Source of the DNA: Theionarchaea archaeon
GTDB lineage: Archaea; Methanobacteriota_B; Thermococci; Methanofastidiosales; SZ-28-30
Length of the DNA: 64,000 bases
Assembly (NCBI GenBank): GCA_018992685.1
Contig: JACVGT010000003.1
Span: 156,585-220,584, forward strand
Reading direction: 5' to 3'
The notes beneath the pieces were generated by a model. The model ran no database searches. It was not told the origin of the DNA and saw only the letters and a list, made by a program, of their open reading frames with translations. Each line of letters opens with the position of its first letter. Within the stretch, counting starts at the first letter, position 1. Shown here piece by piece: positions 38,817 through 51,774 of the stretch. Position numbers and translations under genes: made by a program.

Positions 38817-39135
38817 GATCTATGTGACCTGTCCATTGATATAAGTCTATGGTGACGTTGTCAGAAGATGAAATCCGGCACTATCTCATCGCAAAGTAGA
38901 GTTCAAAAGGGAAGTCACAAAAGTATCTGAGTACGTAGAATGAAGGCTTCGGGAAAGAGATTACCAAAATCAATTCCTTAGATTGGCAAAATACCCATGC
39001 AGTGCGTTTTAACACCTTTTTGATGTTATCTGCTAGCTCATTCAATTCGTTCTTTGAAAATTCTTCTACATTTCCACTGGCACACTAGTATGCACAATCC
39101 TGCAGCAGCTGGAATTGATATTAAAAACACAAAGC

Positions 39136-39146
39136 TTTTATAAATT
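39136..39146 (+). promoter_or_regulatory. TATA box about 25 nt upstream of ATG 39165 (leaderless)
   Basis: TTTTATAAATT. Confidence 0.6.
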
Positions 39147-39164
39147 AGTTACAATATGAGAGTG

Positions 39165-39413
39165 ATGGATGATAAATTAGGCGAAGAGATTATCAGAAAG
39201 CTTGAGATGCTAATCAGGATAACAGCAATCAGTGCAGTCAGGGACGAAAGCCTTGAAGACAAGATAAGGATACTATCAACTGCTGGGCTCAAGAATACAG
39301 AAATCGCTGATATATTAGGGAAGAGTCAGTCGAACATAGGAGTAAGGCTTTCGATGATCAGAAAGAAAAAGGCAAAAATCGTCGAAAATGAGTGTGAAGA
39401 ATCTCAACAATGA
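39165..39413 (+). CDS. Small HTH protein (multi-HTH island, gene A)
   Basis: LEDKIRILSTAGLKNTEIADILGKSQSNIGVRLSMIRKKK; start chosen by TATA spacing. Confidence 0.75.
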   Translation: MDDKLGEEIIRKLEMLIRITAISAVRDESLEDKIRILSTAGLKNTEIADILGKSQSNIGVRLSMIRKKKAKIVENECEESQQ

Positions 39414-39488
39414 AAATCCAAAATCAGATTGCCGAAAATCAAGATACCAAAGGAAATGTTCTAAATGGGCCCGATATATGGGTTGACA

Positions 39489-40316
39489 TCATGATATACT
39501 CAATTTGCTGTATGCAAAGAGTATTCTCGCTGTGTCAGTCCCATCAATTACGCAATAATAGAGTTTCATATTCTTGCTTCCGCTAAGATTGGAAACGCAT
39601 GTCTCTAGTAGTTTTATGACATCCGTATCTATCTCTCCAACATGCTGAACTACAAACAATTCTGCTGGTTCTGTCATAAGTCTCAATACCTGATTTCCTC
39701 TCTTTCCACATTTGTCTATTGTGAGTTTTCTTACAGAGGGACCTTTAAGAAGAAAAGCTGTGCTTATTCTTTTCCCTCTTAAAATGATGCGAGAAGAATA
39801 GAGATCACTTCTTTCACCTCCCCAATCCTCAGGGATGAATTTCTCCCCAATAATGGAGGCCAATGATTCTTTTAATTTTCTTTCACTCATTTTCACAGGG
39901 ACAAAATCTTTGACAGCCTTAGGATTAACATTCCTGACTTTCCTAAAGGAATCAATGTCATCAACATATACTCTTTCACAAGAGGTTGAAATATCCGAAG
40001 ATTTCGATATTTTCGCCTTTCTCTTGATTTCTTTCAGAACAGGTTCGAATTCATAATTCAGTCTGGTCAGGAGATCTACCAATAGTCTTCTCTTGGTTGT
40101 TGTGGTGTTGATTCTGAAAAAATCGGTCTTGATCTTGTTCATTTCCCTGATGAAGGTCTCTTCATCCGGAATGCGTGAATTCTCCTCTACCCAAGACAAA
40201 TAGACTTGAGAAGCTCTGATCGGAAAATCATCACTTGGTTCCAAACCTTCTGCTCTTATAAAATCCATGACAAGAGAAAGTATCCTTTTCTTCTTGCTCT
40301 TAGAAATAACTGGCAT
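39489..40316 (-). CDS. Hypothetical protein, putative effector/nuclease-like C-terminal domain (gene B)
   Basis: 275 aa; C-terminal DLYSSRIILRGKRISTAFLLKG...KCGKRGNQVLRLMTEPAELFVVQHVGEID...YYCVIDGTDTARILFAYSK. Confidence 0.75.
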   Translation of the reverse strand: MPVISKSKKKRILSLVMDFIRAEGLEPSDDFPIRASQVYLSWVEENSRIPDEETFIREMNKIKTDFFRINTTTTKRRLLVDLLTRLNYEFEPVLKEIKRKAKISKSSDISTSCERVYVDDIDSFRKVRNVNPKAVKDFVPVKMSERKLKESLASIIGEKFIPEDWGGERSDLYSSRIILRGKRISTAFLLKGPSVRKLTIDKCGKRGNQVLRLMTEPAELFVVQHVGEIDTDVIKLLETCVSNLSGSKNMKLYYCVIDGTDTARILFAYSKLSIS

Positions 40317-40325
40317 CCAATCCCC

Positions 40326-40709
40326 TTACATATCGTTTATTCCGAATTCTTGCTTCAGGATTCGGCTGATCCCAAGAATTCTATCCACCTTTCTTTTCCT
40401 GTAAATGCGATGGCCTTCACTCGTTAATTTCCATAATTCAATTAGCCCTTCATTCTTCAGGCTGGTCAATTCCCGGGATACGTTGGATTCTTTCATTTGA
40501 AGAAGCTCCGTGATATCATCAACCGTTCTTTTTTCATTTACAGCTAAAAAGACCTCAGCTTTCCTTTTTGATTTTCCAAAAAAGCTCATGATCTCAGCCA
40601 GTATGTTGTCTTTATTTGCTTTTGTAAGCAGTTCCATCGAGCAATCTATAGCTTCCAGATGCCATTTTATTTCTCTAATGTCTCTCGTGGCTTCATCGCT
40701 CTCAACCAT
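40326..40709 (-). CDS. Small wHTH protein (gene C)
   Basis: Coiled-coil-like N-terminus then KAEVFLAVNEKRTVDDITELLQMKESNVSRELTSLKNEGLIELW. Confidence 0.75.
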   Translation of the reverse strand: MVESDEATRDIREIKWHLEAIDCSMELLTKANKDNILAEIMSFFGKSKRKAEVFLAVNEKRTVDDITELLQMKESNVSRELTSLKNEGLIELWKLTSEGHRIYRKRKVDRILGISRILKQEFGINDM

Positions 40710-40713
40710 TTCA

Positions 40714-41028
40714 TCACTTCCCAATCGGAAATATCTTTTTATAGAATTTGCCACCAGGTTTGTCAACTTCATAGATAATGCCCAGTTCTTCCCATTCCGC
40801 TAGGATTGGTGACAAAGTTCCACTAGTGACACCTATGATGTCTGCTATTTCATTTACGCTATGAGCCCCATCACATGCATTGTACCCCCTGATGTAATTT
40901 TGCTTCAAATTATTCCGCTTTCCATGCACAACAATTTCTCTCACTTCATCTTCGTCGAAGGCAATTCTTCTTAGAAGGGAAATTATGATCTCATTTTGTT
41001 CGATGATCTTTTCTAGTTCCTGTTTCAT
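40714..41028 (-). CDS. Small wHTH protein (gene D)
   Basis: LEKIIEQNEIIISLLRRIA...YNACDGAHSVNEIADIIGVTSGTLSPILAEWEELGIIYEV. Confidence 0.78.
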   Translation of the reverse strand: MKQELEKIIEQNEIIISLLRRIAFDEDEVREIVVHGKRNNLKQNYIRGYNACDGAHSVNEIADIIGVTSGTLSPILAEWEELGIIYEVDKPGGKFYKKIFPIGK

Positions 41029-41063
41029 GCTAACACCTTCAGGTTTCTGACGTTGAACGTGGT

Positions 41064-41177
41064 TCATAGATGCCTCTTATTCTTCCTCATCTCTAGATCC
41101 CTGGTTGCTCGTCTCAGCAAGAACTCTTCCTCATGCTCTAGCAATCTCTTGAAGACATCTTCATTCTTCTTGCTCAT
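41064..41177 (-). CDS. 37-aa charged mini-ORF between HTH genes
   Basis: MSKKNEDVFKRLLEHEEEFLLRRATRDLEMRKNKRHL; start overlaps the upstream HTH stop codon out of frame. Confidence 0.4.
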   Translation of the reverse strand: MSKKNEDVFKRLLEHEEEFLLRRATRDLEMRKNKRHL

Positions 41178-41550
41178 TCACATCAACTTCCTCTACGATT
41201 TCTTCATTCTTCTTTTCAGCCGATTCGGTCTCCGGGGGCTGTATGCCTACTTCTTCCAATGAAAAGACCTTACGATATCTCTTCTTGTAATCTGGATGAA
41301 TTTCCATTATACCCATAGCACACCATTTTTTCCAATGATTTCTCACAGTTTTTGACGCAACACCTGCAATCTTTGCAATTTCAGGGCTGCTTCTACCATC
41401 ACTTAATTCATATATGAGTTTTTTGGAAATATCATCTAGCTCTGATTCCAGAATCACTTTGACGTTCTGCATGCCCTGAAATTTCGTCCACTTTAGGATT
41501 TCTTCTAACACTTCCAGGAGCTTCCTGCTGGATTCCACCTCCTCCTTCAC
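41161..41550 (-). CDS. Small wHTH protein (gene E)
   Basis: ISKKLIYELSDGRSSPEIAKIAGVASKTVRNHWKKWCAMGIMEI. Confidence 0.8.
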   Translation of the reverse strand: MKEEVESSRKLLEVLEEILKWTKFQGMQNVKVILESELDDISKKLIYELSDGRSSPEIAKIAGVASKTVRNHWKKWCAMGIMEIHPDYKKRYRKVFSLEEVGIQPPETESAEKKNEEIVEEVDVNEQEE

Positions 41551-41849
41551 TAAATCACCCTTTGTGGAAAGCGCTTTCCATCTTCTAATCTGAAAGTAAC
41601 AAGGCCTTCATCTTCCAAGTCCTTGATGGTCAGGCGAACATATTCGCCTGAAACTCTAGCCTTCTTTGCAATCTCACTCATTTCGTTGCGTCCATCACAA
41701 AGCTCATATATCTTCTGCTTCTTTGGAGTTGAGAGAATTGTATACCTCTTTTCCATCATATCCTTGCTGGCAATGACCTTTAGTAGAGCAATGACTTGAT
41801 CCAGTTTTCCTTCGAGTGATCTTAGATCACTTGATGTTTCTGATGTCAT
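41550..41849 (-). CDS. Small wHTH protein (gene F)
   Basis: KIYELCDGRNEMSEIAKKARVSGEYVRLTIKDLEDEGLVTF; start ATG 41849 by TATA spacing. Confidence 0.8.
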   Translation of the reverse strand: MTSETSSDLRSLEGKLDQVIALLKVIASKDMMEKRYTILSTPKKQKIYELCDGRNEMSEIAKKARVSGEYVRLTIKDLEDEGLVTFRLEDGKRFPQRVI

Positions 41850-41869
41850 AGTATTCTGTAGACAATAAC

Positions 41870-41877
41870 ATTTAAAT
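41870..41877. promoter_or_regulatory. Palindromic TATA-like element between divergent HTH genes
   Basis: ATTTAAAT centred about 24 nt from both divergent start codons (41849 minus, 41897 plus). Confidence 0.6.
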
Positions 41878-41896
41878 AGTTTACTGTTAAGTTTAC

Positions 41897-42235
41897 TTGG
41901 GTGATCACATAGGAAAGAAAGAAGACATAGAAGTACTCTGGCAGATAAACAAAAACCTAGAGGAAATCTCAATCAAGATAGATCAGCTAATCTCCTTGTA
42001 CAGGTTTGTCCAAGAACATGAACTCGAATGCTTCAGAGAAAAAGTACTTGGGAAATCAAAGATCAGGAGAGAGATCTACGGCATGTGCGATGGAACAAAA
42101 ACAGTCCAAGAAATAGCACGAAGGGCAAACAGATCAATTCAACATGTCAGTATGATTCTCAAGACACTGGAAAGAGGTAGACTGATTGAATCAAGAGAAG
42201 TGGGAAAGAAAAAGTACTATATCCGGATAGCATAA
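41897..42235 (+). CDS. Small wHTH protein (gene G)
   Basis: IYGMCDGTKTVQEIARRANRSIQHVSMILKTLERGRLIESR; TTG start. Confidence 0.8.
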   Translation: MGDHIGKKEDIEVLWQINKNLEEISIKIDQLISLYRFVQEHELECFREKVLGKSKIRREIYGMCDGTKTVQEIARRANRSIQHVSMILKTLERGRLIESREVGKKKYYIRIA

Positions 42236-42335
42236 TGACCTTGAGGTGGCAGGATAGATACAAATGTCATTGGGACAACAGATTGGATCGCAGCGATTAC
42301 GATGGATGAAAGAATTCTCAGGAAAAGGAAACATG

Positions 42336-42545
42336 TCAAGAAAGAAGTTCCACCTCAAGCTCTAACAAAGAGGGTATCTCTATTTGCTCTCCTCTCTCAA
42401 GCAATTCAAGAAAGTGTACTTCAACAGCCTTTTTTATATTATTAATCAGTTCATCCAGAGTCCCCCCCTGTGTGAAAATATTCTCTCCGATCCCACGGGC
42501 GCACCGACACTCACTATCATTATATACTTCCATTTTCACGAGCAT
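42336..42545 (-). CDS. HicB-like antitoxin-fold protein (orphan)
   Basis: MLVKMEVYNDSECRCARGIGENIFTQGGTLDELINNIKKAVEVHFLELLERGE: HicB N-terminal partial RNase H-like pattern; no HicA-like ORF adjacent. Confidence 0.65.
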   Translation of the reverse strand: MLVKMEVYNDSECRCARGIGENIFTQGGTLDELINNIKKAVEVHFLELLERGEQIEIPSLLELEVELLS

Positions 42546-44906: not shown

Positions 44907-47900
44907 TCAGCCTTCTTTCAGTATTTCAAGGAGAAGGTCCACAAGCTCTTCGTAGTTATTGTCTCTCTGATTGCTCCAGTAGTTGGAGGCAATGTAATTC
45001 CCTGCGTAGTAGTACTCCTCAAGTTGCTTGCAGCACAGTTCTATGCGAGACAGTAACTCCTGTACTCTGGCCCACTTTTCAGGATACTTCTTATCCAGAC
45101 CTTTGTCCAGGACCAGATTCAGCAGCTGTTTTATCAGATCCTCCAGGTTCTCACAGCATGGAGCTTCCCTGCGCCATTCCACATCCACTCCTGAGTCCCT
45201 GATCTTTTCGATAAGTTCCTTGTACCTGGCGTAGCAATCCATCATTCCTCCGTACGCTAGAGGCTGCAGTGATACCTGTGTCCGATGGATCGTTCCCGTG
45301 GGCAGGGTAACCAGAGCAGAATCATCATCAGATACAGGAAATCCATTGGGAGGTGTTCCCGTGGCAGTCACTACATTTAGGGCAGGAGATTCCTCCCCGT
45401 TCACATATGCCTCGAATGTGATGGTTATCGTTTCCCCCGTATCAAGAGGACCCACATTGGCCCAGATGAGAGTCATTGTGCTGTCTGGATCCACAACTGT
45501 TTGATCTGGGGAGATGTTGGCTGCATCCTGATAGGTCAGTCCTAGAGACAAGACGTCCACGACCTTCACAGGGTCGAGAGGAACTTCTCCGGTATTCGTT
45601 ATGGTCAACGTGAACGTCACGTTCTGGCCTGGATTCAAAGAAGAGGGAGCTACTGACTTAACCACGTGGATGGCTGGGGCGGCCACGCCAACGGGTGATG
45701 TGTCTTCATCAGACACATCCCCGATGACAGACGTGCCAATGACAATGGCCCTGTTGACGAAGGTTCCTACTCTTCCCGGATCCACCTCCGCTTCGAAGCT
45801 CACCGTAATGATGTCACTCGGATTCATGGCCCCTATGTTCAACCAGGTCAATGTCTGTGTTCTATCAGAGTTATCCACGGTAAAATCAGGCTCATACGGC
45901 AGTCCAGCCACAATGGCTGTTCCTGGTCTGTAGGTCAATCCATCAGGGAGAATGTCTGTCAGCTGCACAGGATCGAGTATCATGTCCCCCGTGTTTTCAA
46001 TGGTCAATTCAAAGTAGACAATTCCTCCGGGGGACGGTACATTAATCTGGGTATTCAGGGTTATCTTCATGAGATCTGTACCGGGCGCGCGCACTGTCCA
46101 CTCATCATCTACTGGTGGATAGTGTCTTTCATATGGGCTGATGCCAAGGAGGGTGGAATAATCTGTAATAGTAGTCACATTAGTGAATACACCCCCCTGA
46201 GGCGGGATGACTGCATCATATTCTAGAATGACGGTGCTACCCACAGGGATTATGGTGTAGCTCCAGGTTACGGTGTTTCCCACAACAGAGGTTGCCGTGG
46301 CTTGAGGTGTGGACGCAATCGATCCTGTATCCAGGATAAGACCCGTCGGCACCACATCTTCGATACTCACGTCGTATGCAGGTGACGTACCTTGATTCTG
46401 AATGGTAATCGTGTAGTGGATGGTATCTCCGGGGAGTCCTTCGGTGATGGACCCCTGCTTATTGATGATGAGGTCGGGCTCAATGATCTCGACATCTGCA
46501 TCATCTGACAGATCGAAAGGTACACCTTCTTCTGTTCCAGTGGATCGCGCCCAGTTTGTCAACGTGACACCATCCTGGTTGGTCACAACGTCCTGGACCC
46601 TTGCTGTTACCGTGATATCCACCGTGTTGGGCCCGGTGAAATTGCCCAGAGTCCAGGTAATTGACTGCCCCACCACCACAGGTACAGGAGATAATCCCAA
46701 GGTGTCATTGTAGGTCGAACTCACGTACTCCAGTCCTGCAGGCAGGGTGTCTATGACCAGGACATTCTCGTAAGAAGAAGCACCCCAGTAGGAAATTGAC
46801 ACATCAAATGTTATTTCTTCCCCAATGGTGGCAGTCTGCACGTCAGGAGTCTTAAATATCCCCTCTACAGTCTGGACCCATGCAGTGTCTGTAGCCGTAC
46901 TGTACACACAGCCTGTAGAACAGTACCCGTTGACAACCACTGTATCAGTGCCCAATGTGCCTGTGATGTCAGCAGAAAGGGTAGCAGTCCACGTACCTCC
47001 AATAGGGATGGGCGCTGACACATTCCAGGTCACCGTGTTCCCCACCACTGCGGGGATTTCCCCCCCGGATCCATTTCCTGCTGCAATGTTGATGAAGTTC
47101 AGGCTGAGAGAATCGACCACATCTACAGATTCTGCCTGGTAGTTGCCTGTGTTGGTAACGGTTATGGTCCACGTGGTACTTCCTCCAGGGGGTCTGGTCA
47201 CTATCTCGGGAGTCTTGCTCACAGTGAGCACAGGAGTCAGGGGCGTGACATTTCTCGTGTTGGTGCGGGTGTAATGCTGGTCACATGCATTGTCAAAATC
47301 AACATACACAGTATTGACATCGGGGGTGACAGTTCCGCAGCTGGTACCATCATCAATAATCCTGAATTGGAGGACCACTGTCTGCCCCTCTGTCATGGGC
47401 CCGATGACCCATATTGGACGAGTCAAGTCTGCAGGGGGTTCAGGACTGGGGCTGGGACCTGAAACCATGGAATCGTAGTAGAATCCCGCAGGTAAATCTG
47501 ACGTAATTACAACATTGTATGCAGTTGGACCATTGTTTCGCACTGTTACGGTGATTTCACCATTGCACGTGGTGATAGTGCCCAGGGTTTGAGAAATGGT
47601 AAATGAAGAGGTGGTTCTCAGGTATCCCGTGTCGCACGACTGTGGCTCTCTGCAGGGGTCAACAGCCGGGGTTGTGGGGTTGTCATTGCACCCGTAGTGG
47701 ACACACGCAGTATTGGTGGTTGGGCTCGCCGTACATTCACCTGCATCTACCGTAGCATAGACAGAGTAGGTCACTGTCTGGCCTACCAGCAAATCTCCAT
47801 GTACCCAGGGATCAGCCTGCGTACCTGATCCTCCTCCGGGAGGAGCAGGGGTCACAGAAGAGAACGTCATGTTACTGGGGAATACATCCCAGAATTCCAC

Positions 47901-50900
47901 ATTGTACGCGGTGGAGGCTCCTGTGTTGGATATGCGAATACGCCACTCAATGAGGTCTCCTGGTTCTGCATTGACGGTATTGGTGTAGGAGGCCTGGCCT
48001 GCTGTGACATTTCTCCCGTCCTTGACAATGGAAATTGTGGGTTCTCTCACAGGCAGGGTGGACCGTGATTCAGGGCTGATTTTCAGTTCCCGGCACACAC
48101 TCTCATAGTACGCTTCTGAAACGACCGTTCTGTTCCCATTTGGAAAATCACATCCTGCAATAACATCAAAGGAAATTGAACGGGTGACGCCAGGATCAAT
48201 GGAAGAGAGAAATGCTGCTTCAGTACTGGTCCACACCAGGGGATTGGCCAGTGGGTCCTGGGGCTCTCCTGGTACGCCTGTCCCCGCTACATAGTCTAGT
48301 CCCAGAGGCAGTGTGACTCTCACCTCGACATTGTAGATTGTTGTGAGTCCCGCATTCTTCACCTGGACAGTGATGGTGTCCTGTTCACACAGGTTAATGT
48401 AAGCGGGCAGGATGTTTGTGGTGACAGCATATGCAGGAGGAATTGCCACAGTAGAGTGATCAGTGACTGCGGGCTGGCAGTCCACACCCAGGCAACCCCA
48501 GCTTGCTGCAACATCATTGTCCAGATTTGTGCATCCAACGAGGTCTGCTGTTAGCGTAATGACTCTGGTTTCCCCGGCAGGAATCTCGTTGAAGCTCCAG
48601 TTCACCCCGTTAATGGGGGTACCCAGGTGATCCTGATTGACGGTAATGGTGACCGGCACAGGGTTACCCAGCAGGTCGGTGGCTGATGAAGAATTATACT
48701 GTAGATCAGACCCCAGAATGTCATCAACCCACACACTGTACGCAGTACCGCTCCCCGAATTGGTGACATAGATGGTCCAGGTGACTTGATTCTGAGTGGC
48801 GTAGATCAGCTCGGGTGTCTTTTTTATGAACAACGAAGCCTCCAGAAGATACGGGCATCCTGCAACCGTGTGCGAACATTCTCTGTCTGGCTGGGCATCA
48901 TCCCAGCACTTCCCGTCCCAGTAGACACTGGCCGAGTTATCAGCAGGCGTGCCGCACCGCTTCTGGAACGTTACCAGAATCTGGGCAGCTACCTGGGTGA
49001 CAAAACTGTCTCCATAGTCGAATTCCAGTCGGTCTGCATAGGTCGTCAGCGTGGGGACGGGACCTGTGTAACCAGTGACAGTTACTGCATAATTCTGGAT
49101 GGGAACAACTACCAGGACATCATATGCACCCACTGCTGATGTTCTGGTGACATCTATGCTCACATTGCAGGATTCGCAGCTACTGATGAAATCAGGTATC
49201 GTGTTAATGCTAATATTCATCTGTGCTTGATTTATGGTAACATACACTGTTTCCTGCAATTCCTGGTCGGGCTGACACGACCCCCCCTGCTTCCCCGTGT
49301 CCAAGACAGACCAGTCGTAGAACGAGTAGGTGGGTTCACAACAACCAGGAGAAGAAGCATCGGTGGTCTGGAGCGTGTACTGGATGGTCAACGTGGAATT
49401 TCTTACCGCAGGGAAGGGTACACAGCTCGAGTAATCACCTGTGCTGAAATCTAGAACGAGCTGGCCTCCCACAATATTTGGTGCAATAACAATTGAGCAG
49501 GTGTTAACCCCGTCATCCACCGTCACTGATAGAGAGCCGGCAACATACGTCTGGAAATTGGCCATGTCCTCGTAGAATACGAGATCTGTCCAGCTGACGT
49601 CATCCCACCAGACATCATCATAAAACTGATAGGTGTTGGTATAATATATGTCAGTACACTTCTCGAACCCCGTGGTGGAAGAGACTGCCTTCTCAGAATC
49701 ATAGTATTCCTCACACTCCAAAGCTGTGGTCTGGGAGGACGATGCAGTTAGAGTACAGCCACAACAATCAGTCATAGAAGCCGTCACTGTGTTGGTGGCA
49801 TATGTGTAGCAATACAATTCACATTGGGAGTAATTTGGAGATTGAAGAGTGATGGTGGTATTCAGTCCTGCGGTGGCGGCGACCACCCACGTAATGGTGC
49901 TTCCCACTACAGTGCCTCCTCCTGCATCCACAATGGTGAATCCACCGGGTATGGTATCCACCACGGTGATATTGCCAGCATTCCCTCCTCCGCAGGAAAG
50001 CGGACCTGAATAGGCAGCCGCAATGGTATACGTAATGGATTCTCCCAGATATATCTCCGGAGGAGCTCCAGTCTTACTGAGTGTGAGACTGGGTACACTG
50101 GTCACAGAAAGGTTCCCATACTGCACGGGAGGATAGAACACTTCTCCACAGTCGTCGTAGTACTCGGGTTGGAACAATATCCTCTGTGAGGGAAGTCCCG
50201 AACACCAGTCTGAATGAGTCAGTGTGAACATCAGATTCACTGTGGACCCCGCAGGAATGTCCCCTATGAAGAATCGGTCAAACACGCTGTCATAGGAAGC
50301 TCCTGCAGGTCCAAGAACTGTGACAAAAAGGGGACCGAAATCCACATAAAGATAAAAACTGTGAGCTGCTCCTGTGCCAGAATTGGTGATAGGTATGGTA
50401 AACTGTGTTCCGGCAGAGCAGTAGTCTAACTGGAAATCAGGGAGCACATACGAAATTTCAGGTTCTTCTACGATAAGCTGTACAGAGGCTTGGGTGGTTT
50501 CTGTCTGGCAGGGGGTACCATTGCAACTCCATACTGCCTGGGCATCGTTTTCCAGCCCGCTGCAGGCAATGACCTCAGCATATACGTCAATCAGTACTTG
50601 GTCTCCTGGTTTCATGAGCTGCAGGGCAGGTATGTAGGAATAATCCCATGTAACAGTGGGGAGCCCAGAGGTGTCTCCTGAAGTGGATTGAACAGCGTCA
50701 AACAGGAGCCCAGCACCCAACGTGTCCTGTACGCGTACGTTCTGAATGGGGCCAAACCCAGTACTGGTTACAGTCAGAGTCCAGTGTACGGTATCATTGA
50801 GATGGGCAGGTATGACAGAGGGAGTCTTGGTGATGGTGACAGCACCAGGCTGAACCGTCAGGTAGATGGAACCCTGAGATGAGCCTGCATCATGGGTAAC

Positions 50901-51269
50901 ATCCACCAGAATCTGACCAGAGACAGCTGCGCACGTGACGTAGAGAGAGATGACAGCGTTCCAGGAATCCAGCGGTGGCAAATCCCCTGCGCCCCAGGTG
51001 ATGGTCTGTCCCACCACTGTACCGCCTCCACCGTCAACAATAGTGAAGTCAGCAGGAATCGTAGCCAGGACTGTCACATTGGTAGCAGACTCTGAAGAAG
51101 ATGTATTCTCAATGGTAATAGTATAATCATACTGTTGACACATGTTGACTGATGCAGTCCCCACAATGTCAACAGCCAGCACAGGCTGTGAACCGATGTA
51201 ATAAACGTTGAAAAAGAGCGATAACCCAATAAGTACAATACTTCCCAGTCTCTTCATACTTTTAGCCAT
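44907..51269 (-). CDS. Giant secreted DUF11-repeat surface protein
   Basis: About 2120 aa from start 51269 (MAKSMKRLGSIVLIGLSLFF signal); many repeats of the type ITNTGxxxAxxVxVxDxLPxGL; GGAGGAAC RBS upstream. Confidence 0.88.
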   Translation of the reverse strand: MAKSMKRLGSIVLIGLSLFFNVYYIGSQPVLAVDIVGTASVNMCQQYDYTITIENTSSSESATNVTVLATIPADFTIVDGGGGTVVGQTITWGAGDLPPLDSWNAVISLYVTCAAVSGQILVDVTHDAGSSQGSIYLTVQPGAVTITKTPSVIPAHLNDTVHWTLTVTSTGFGPIQNVRVQDTLGAGLLFDAVQSTSGDTSGLPTVTWDYSYIPALQLMKPGDQVLIDVYAEVIACSGLENDAQAVWSCNGTPCQTETTQASVQLIVEEPEISYVLPDFQLDYCSAGTQFTIPITNSGTGAAHSFYLYVDFGPLFVTVLGPAGASYDSVFDRFFIGDIPAGSTVNLMFTLTHSDWCSGLPSQRILFQPEYYDDCGEVFYPPVQYGNLSVTSVPSLTLSKTGAPPEIYLGESITYTIAAAYSGPLSCGGGNAGNITVVDTIPGGFTIVDAGGGTVVGSTITWVVAATAGLNTTITLQSPNYSQCELYCYTYATNTVTASMTDCCGCTLTASSSQTTALECEEYYDSEKAVSSTTGFEKCTDIYYTNTYQFYDDVWWDDVSWTDLVFYEDMANFQTYVAGSLSVTVDDGVNTCSIVIAPNIVGGQLVLDFSTGDYSSCVPFPAVRNSTLTIQYTLQTTDASSPGCCEPTYSFYDWSVLDTGKQGGSCQPDQELQETVYVTINQAQMNISINTIPDFISSCESCNVSIDVTRTSAVGAYDVLVVVPIQNYAVTVTGYTGPVPTLTTYADRLEFDYGDSFVTQVAAQILVTFQKRCGTPADNSASVYWDGKCWDDAQPDRECSHTVAGCPYLLEASLFIKKTPELIYATQNQVTWTIYVTNSGSGTAYSVWVDDILGSDLQYNSSSATDLLGNPVPVTITVNQDHLGTPINGVNWSFNEIPAGETRVITLTADLVGCTNLDNDVAASWGCLGVDCQPAVTDHSTVAIPPAYAVTTNILPAYINLCEQDTITVQVKNAGLTTIYNVEVRVTLPLGLDYVAGTGVPGEPQDPLANPLVWTSTEAAFLSSIDPGVTRSISFDVIAGCDFPNGNRTVVSEAYYESVCRELKISPESRSTLPVREPTISIVKDGRNVTAGQASYTNTVNAEPGDLIEWRIRISNTGASTAYNVEFWDVFPSNMTFSSVTPAPPGGGSGTQADPWVHGDLLVGQTVTYSVYATVDAGECTASPTTNTACVHYGCNDNPTTPAVDPCREPQSCDTGYLRTTSSFTISQTLGTITTCNGEITVTVRNNGPTAYNVVITSDLPAGFYYDSMVSGPSPSPEPPADLTRPIWVIGPMTEGQTVVLQFRIIDDGTSCGTVTPDVNTVYVDFDNACDQHYTRTNTRNVTPLTPVLTVSKTPEIVTRPPGGSTTWTITVTNTGNYQAESVDVVDSLSLNFINIAAGNGSGGEIPAVVGNTVTWNVSAPIPIGGTWTATLSADITGTLGTDTVVVNGYCSTGCVYSTATDTAWVQTVEGIFKTPDVQTATIGEEITFDVSISYWGASSYENVLVIDTLPAGLEYVSSTYNDTLGLSPVPVVVGQSITWTLGNFTGPNTVDITVTARVQDVVTNQDGVTLTNWARSTGTEEGVPFDLSDDADVEIIEPDLIINKQGSITEGLPGDTIHYTITIQNQGTSPAYDVSIEDVVPTGLILDTGSIASTPQATATSVVGNTVTWSYTIIPVGSTVILEYDAVIPPQGGVFTNVTTITDYSTLLGISPYERHYPPVDDEWTVRAPGTDLMKITLNTQINVPSPGGIVYFELTIENTGDMILDPVQLTDILPDGLTYRPGTAIVAGLPYEPDFTVDNSDRTQTLTWLNIGAMNPSDIITVSFEAEVDPGRVGTFVNRAIVIGTSVIGDVSDEDTSPVGVAAPAIHVVKSVAPSSLNPGQNVTFTLTITNTGEVPLDPVKVVDVLSLGLTYQDAANISPDQTVVDPDSTMTLIWANVGPLDTGETITITFEAYVNGEESPALNVVTATGTPPNGFPVSDDDSALVTLPTGTIHRTQVSLQPLAYGGMMDCYARYKELIEKIRDSGVDVEWRREAPCCENLEDLIKQLLNLVLDKGLDKKYPEKWARVQELLSRIELCCKQLEEYYYAGNYIASNYWSNQRDNNYEELVDLLLEILKEG

Positions 51270-51774
51270 TTCAGTTCCTCCTTTTTGCTTCACCCTCCTC
51301 TCAGTCCGGAGTATAAAAAGATATGCATAACACATGGTTTTGACATGATTCATGACATTGTAGTGAGCCATTTGCGGTAAAAAGCGTTTTCCTACTATTA
51401 TAATCGTAGCCCTTACAATGGGATTATAGTCCCCTATTTCAAGGCATAATCTACGTATCAGACAACCGAGCAGAGCTTTCATTGCCACGCAAGAGGATTT
51501 AGGCTGAAAAAAACAACGCTCTCATGGATGCAGTTGATTTTTTAACTTAGTATGATCAGGATACTGCGAGACATGAAGAGAATTTCTTGACGTTTCATTT
51601 TTCTGAGAACTGCAGCTTTTCCAGCATTCAACCGACAGGATTCATTTGTTGGGACAATTGCAGTTACGTTTGATCAAATTGCTGTACTTTTGGAAGACGT
51701 TCAAAATGATGAGAAAAACTGGCTCCTTACGGACTCGAGGACTCTCACACCTGTGAAACTCGCAGCCGAGCGAT

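Follow-up and report, generated by a model that had tools for sequence, protein, structure and literature searches.

The lambda CI/Cro system is a divergent repressor switch. Divergent transcription from symmetric promoters is reportedly widespread among prokaryotes, according to Warman et al. (2021), with promoter symmetry as the cause of divergent initiation, as it would be at the locus described below. The promoters treated in two papers that cite this work are built from sigma70 -10 elements (PMC12825309, PMC10268837), whereas TBP and TFB would be responsible here, and the two directions of basal bidirectional promoters tested in E. coli showed no competition for polymerase, except where one was strongly activated (PMC12825309). 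For archaea, BRE-TATA-BRE promoters have been mapped genome-wide in Pyrococcus furiosus, with start sites about 50 bp (49-50) apart, as in an example with a TTTAAA core, the start sites of which are 49 bp apart and from which both transcripts were obtained in vitro in nearly equal amounts; by-product transcripts from such bidirectional promoters are common in that organism (PMC6640164).

The locus compared here with these systems lies in a stretch of 64,000 nucleotides from a Theionarchaea archaeon (the window, by which the whole stretch analysed is meant), where two wHTH genes diverge from the palindromic TATA core ATTTAAAT (Table 1). It resembles the P. furiosus promoters (PMC6640164) in the near-symmetric TTTAAA core, and in the presence of a BRE on both strands, its predicted start sites, 51 bp apart, would be spaced much as theirs are, and it differs from them in that the second transcript there is mostly non-coding antisense, whereas here intact regulator ORFs lie on both sides. 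In that, the locus would show clearly, for an uncultured archaeon, how a bidirectional TATA can face two real coding genes, the mRNAs of which are predicted to differ in their mode of initiation, one being leaderless and the other having a short leader with a Shine-Dalgarno sequence (SD). With lambda CI/Cro it shares two divergent genes for DNA-binding proteins and overlapping control regions, and it differs in its single shared TATA and in its operon side, which consists of four wHTH genes and a gene for a 275-aa protein. Taken as a whole, the locus is probably, though far from certainly, a bidirectional BRE-TATA-BRE promoter of the ordinary archaeal kind, located in a small wHTH island that varies between strains.

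Table 1. Features of the divergent wHTH locus (positions within the window)
Feature	Position	Strand	Basis
Shared palindromic TATA core ATTTAAAT	41870-41877	.	sequence; scored in both directions
BRE+TATA of minus gene, GTAAACTATTTAAAT	41870-41884	-	9.92 bits; motif start -35 from ATG 41849
BRE+TATA of plus gene, ATAACATTTAAATAG	41865-41879	+	9.91 bits; -32 from TTG 41897, -44 from ATA 41909
Minus wHTH gene, 99 aa, first of minus-strand cluster	41550-41849	-	ORF; paralogue of plus gene
Predicted minus TSS, first base of ATG (leaderless)	41849	-	motif register -35; -1 = T, +1 = A
Plus wHTH gene, likeliest start ATA 41909 (108 aa); first-pass start TTG 41897 (112 aa)	41909-42235	+	joint SD/promoter test; model
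Predicted plus TSS zone, 41900 best	41899-41901	+	motif start 41865 + 35
Shine-Dalgarno-like GGTGATC	41900-41906	+	GGTGAT peak at -9 of ATG starts
Direct repeat copy 1, AGTTTACT	41878-41885	+	exact repeat; overlaps minus-direction BRE
Direct repeat copy 2, AGTTTACT	41890-41897	+	exact repeat; just upstream of predicted plus TSS
Second wHTH gene of minus cluster	41161-41550	-	ORF, HTH matches; without promoter motif upstream
Third wHTH gene of minus cluster	40714-41028	-	ORF, HTH matches; without promoter motif upstream
Fourth wHTH gene (ATG 40709, or 40772)	40326-40709	-	ORF, HTH matches; weak upstream motif, 4.5 bits
275-aa protein, last cluster gene	39489-40316	-	C-terminal half: family widespread in bacteria, invariant DWGGE..D and K
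Island, about 3.6 kb	38856-42431	.	genus mate has 49 bp instead (alignment with G001 contig C105)

The promoter was judged against the rest of its own genome, from which 855 kb (28%) of 3.03 Mb were sampled as stretches for promoter statistics, the gene starts being those of a simple hexamer-model caller made for this analysis. A 15-column promoter motif trained on 494 upstream regions reads RAAANCTTTWTAAA, and its start peaks sharply at -35 (also -34 and -36) from the start codon; of the 181 ATG genes where it scores at least 8 bits, 106 carry it between -36 and -34. This peak is the signature of leaderless transcription, the dominant class in the genome. Among TTG-called genes such a motif is present in 4 of 27, and none of the four has it at -36 to -34. 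There is also a second class: GGTGAT ahead of ATG starts is concentrated at -9 (28 of 43), and in the 31 genes with GGTG exactly 9 nt ahead of the start codon the motif is found at -44 (8 genes) or at -48 (6 genes), which implies that the 5' ends of these mRNAs coincide with the Shine-Dalgarno sequence or shortly precede it.

The first-pass annotation of this DNA had proposed that a single symmetric TATA, centred about 24.5 nt from the minus ATG and about 23.5 nt from an in-frame TTG of the plus gene, could be read in both directions. The letters and distances were reproduced, and in silico a near-symmetric box readable both ways is supported, as the 15-column BRE+TATA motif matches both strands with virtually the same score, the BRE-like elements flanking ATTTAAAT being GTAAAC for the minus and ATAAC for the plus direction. 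A score of 9.9 bits in both directions corresponds to the 98.9th percentile of random 60-mers and to the 68th percentile among real upstream regions, i.e. it is a middling score for either direction. The 8-bp palindrome itself is of a kind that recurs, an AT-only palindrome of this length being present inside the TATA zone of 16 of the 494 upstream regions; ATTTAAAT accounts for 3 of the 17 such sites, and TTTAAA is the most frequent self-complementary core in this zone. No dyad larger than 8 bp could be seen by eye around ATTTAAAT, and inverted repeats there are no longer than in shuffled sequences. As a palindrome, ATTTAAAT is thus nothing special, but as a promoter it is above chance, and the prediction of a bidirectional BRE-TATA-BRE promoter is well supported in silico.

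The two directions are less alike in register than in score, the motif lying at -35 on the minus side vs -32 on the plus side despite near-equal distances from the TATA core. Both genes had been taken to be leaderless, which in this genome would place the motif 34-36 nt from each start; this part of the first-pass annotation stands for the minus gene, the transcript of which is read as leaderless because its motif occupies the dominant register, and it is not supported for TTG 41897. A motif at -32 implies instead an expected start site at about 41900, beyond the first base of that TTG, and the start sites predicted from the motif register, 41849 (minus) and 41900 (plus), are 51 bp apart on opposite strands. 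Downstream of the predicted plus start site, an in-frame ATA at 41909 follows the first base of GGTGATC by 9 nt, the modal spacing of the genome, and relative to it the motif stands at -44, where SD-led genes most often have it. The preferred reading, inferred from the register, is that the plus transcript would be short-leadered and SD-led with a non-canonical AUA start, or else that its start codon was lost or misread in the assembly. The two transcripts would thus probably be asymmetric, the minus one leaderless and the plus one short-leadered with an unusual start codon. A leaderless start of the plus gene at GTG 41901 was also considered and rejected, as a stop is reached after three codons.

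When in-frame codons near gene starts were tested jointly for an SD at -9 and a promoter at -43 to -50, ATG was found 21 times, GTG 6 times, TTG twice and ATC, ATA and TAC once each, the ATA being that of the plus wHTH gene and the TAC sitting next to a real ATG. The ATC belongs to a gene outside the window (G000:C1:308646-309935, minus strand) with an SD at -9, a promoter of 14.5 bits in register and the spaced codon 21 nt 5' of the called start, and is a possible non-canonical start of its own. It has to be noted that GGTGA stands at -9 of only 3 ATA codons and that GGTG at -9 precedes ATA at a rate of 6.9 vs a background of 4.7 per 1000, hardly above it; in the sampled genome, ATA has no established use as a start codon. 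The single base 41911 of the MAG may reflect a polymorphism or an error. For annotation, the promoter register suggests 41909 rather than 41897 as the start of the plus gene, and an AUA start, if confirmed, would be a rare non-canonical start in archaea.

The unusual codon is also what speaks for the strongest of the alternatives, in which only the minus promoter is of consequence, the plus side being left with a paralogue that is decaying or hardly translated and with RNA that is by-product noise, as has been proposed for many bidirectional TATA boxes. The SD-spaced codon is indeed ATA and not ATG, GTG or TTG, and by-product transcripts are common at bidirectional promoters in P. furiosus (PMC6640164). 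However, the plus ORF runs uninterrupted through 112 codons, its hexamer use is coding-like (15.8 vs 13.6 for the minus gene), its protein is modelled with confidence, and the gene has both an SD and a promoter in proper register, so that we regard this alternative as unlikely, although it keeps an appreciable chance. The model of the plus protein has a long N-terminal helix of 49 residues ahead of the wHTH (pLDDT 90.8) and ArsR-like fold matches in the PDB. That the flanking ORFs encode related wHTH proteins, as had been stated at first pass, was borne out by a whole-genome search (30% identity, E 6.5e-8; 27% identity in a separate alignment), and the minus neighbour is the only other significant match of the plus protein in the whole 3.03-Mb genome. 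Both flanking proteins share with ArsR/MarR-type regulators HTH_20/ArsR-subfamily and MarR-like matches below cut-off, and they differ in that neither reaches a curated threshold and in the 49-residue N-terminal helix of the model. PADLOC matches to CARF/Csa3 were rejected as to identity, the match being to the shared wHTH part alone and no CARF domain being present.

A second alternative would keep TTG 41897 as the start of the plus gene, with a TSS a few bases upstream (e.g. A41895) and with GGTGATC as a coincidence within the coding sequence. Ahead of the N-terminal helix there is no standard start but this TTG, and two TTG starts with both SD and promoter do occur in the sampled genome; nevertheless, no SD precedes 41897, the motif register puts the TSS at 41899-41901, and chance would seldom put an exact 7-base SD at the modal position, which makes this reading rather improbable.

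Returning to the favoured account of an ordinary two-way promoter, its layout is found again in the same genome. Within the sampled 28%, 510 TATA sites have a motif scoring 9 bits or higher, and 21 of these read both ways; of 120 divergent pairs three have a gap of 47-51 nt, and in each of them a single TATA carries the motif in both orientations. The 50-nt pair (DUF371/GNAT) is weaker, at 6.6 and 9.4 bits, and is kept in the genus mate. The 51-nt pair (G000:C5:126405-126455, i.e. L085:6405-6455, outside the window) separates an asparagine-synthase-like gene from a TPD-domain gene, both with leaderless ATG starts, by a promoter stronger than the wHTH site (12.5/14.8 bits); the genus mate retains both motifs, its version of the region being 90% identical. 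As these two pairs, of metabolic or uncharacterised genes, each share one TATA and have persisted in the genus mate, the geometry is general to compact divergent genes in the genus. The two-way archaeal TATA promoter is of a kind already published, and it recurs between unrelated genes of this genome.

In the mechanism that we propose for the wHTH locus, TBP would bind the near-palindromic TATA, and TFB would set the direction by engaging the BRE-like element of either side. The minus complex would start at 41849 and give a leaderless mRNA for the four wHTH genes and the 275-aa protein, whereas the plus complex would start at about 41900 and give an mRNA with GGTGATC as its 5' end, translated from about 41909, apparently from AUA and so perhaps weakly; both directions would be expressed at modest levels. 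Co-transcription on the minus side is suggested by the promoter scan, the minus promoter being the only good one for the four wHTH genes and the 275-aa protein, since no strong motif lies upstream of the inner genes. Regulation may involve the exact direct repeat AGTTTACT-N4-AGTTTACT, which spans 41878-41897 and so touches elements of both promoters. Its statistical weight is low (dinucleotide-shuffle p = 0.025, with an equally long one in 4.3% of real upstream regions), and a third, degenerate copy at 41850, AGTATTCTGT, was set aside as evidence. If one wHTH protein, as a dimer, were to bind this repeat, both directions might be repressed together, which would amount to shared autoregulation and not to a toggle.

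In the first-pass interpretation, one symmetric TBP site would give two mutually exclusive leaderless mRNAs for the wHTH paralogues, a minimal bistable switch, which with two opposed repressors would be like CI/Cro. The divergent genes do encode related DNA-binding proteins, the promoter scores are equal, and the overlapping promoters leave no room for two simultaneous preinitiation complexes. Yet the plus side misfits a leaderless TTG, the same layout lies between non-regulatory gene pairs, and no competition is seen at basal bidirectional promoters in E. coli (PMC12825309). Furthermore, a search for separate operators of two opposed regulators found none, the sole repeat being the weak one across both promoters, and the locus has no close relative among the genomes searched: close relatives of either flanking wHTH gene were absent from 60 related genomes, the plus protein had no match in the genome contig collection, and conserved pairing and spacing of the genes, which would support a repressor switch, was not found, the only genus mate being without the island. 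The bistable switch is thus very improbable. Comparably improbable is a compact archaeal toggle in which the two related wHTH regulators of the variable island compete for one symmetric TATA and are translated unequally (leaderless AUG vs SD-led AUA), so that the island's genes would be held in alternative, heritable states. A switch is possible as speculation, the layout being the one argument for it, and the idea would matter only if shown by experiment.

The alignment with the genus mate marks 38856-42431 as a strain-variable island. It holds the minus cluster, the plus gene and another HTH gene, and the G+C content of 40-42 kb is low (0.396). That small HTH gene (39156-39413, plus strand) has its promoter motif at -27 from ATG 39156 and at -36 from an in-frame ATG at 39165, and it probably starts leaderless at 39165 rather than at 39156. 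A HicB-like antitoxin ORF (42336-42545, minus strand) straddles the island edge.

The C-terminal half of the 275-aa protein (DWGGE..D ... AFLLKGP ... VVQH) is present across many bacterial phyla, and its N-terminal 100 or so residues differ from those of these bacterial proteins. No Pfam, NCBIfam or PADLOC model matched the family, the viral contig collection gave no match, and the search of the PDB gave no significant one (best E 0.07). From its invariant E145, D171 and K191, and from the secondary structure of the model, a PD-(D/E)XK nuclease core may be suspected.

Elsewhere, the window encodes a TiaS-like protein (NF040849, E 4e-125, below the curated cut-off), which together with the BRE/TATA type of its promoters marks the DNA as archaeal. 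At 44907-51488 on the minus strand, with an acyl-CoA dehydrogenase gene adjoining, lies an ORF of 2193 aa with many repeated 'conserved repeat domain' units, which we take to be DUF11-like; its product is likely a surface protein.
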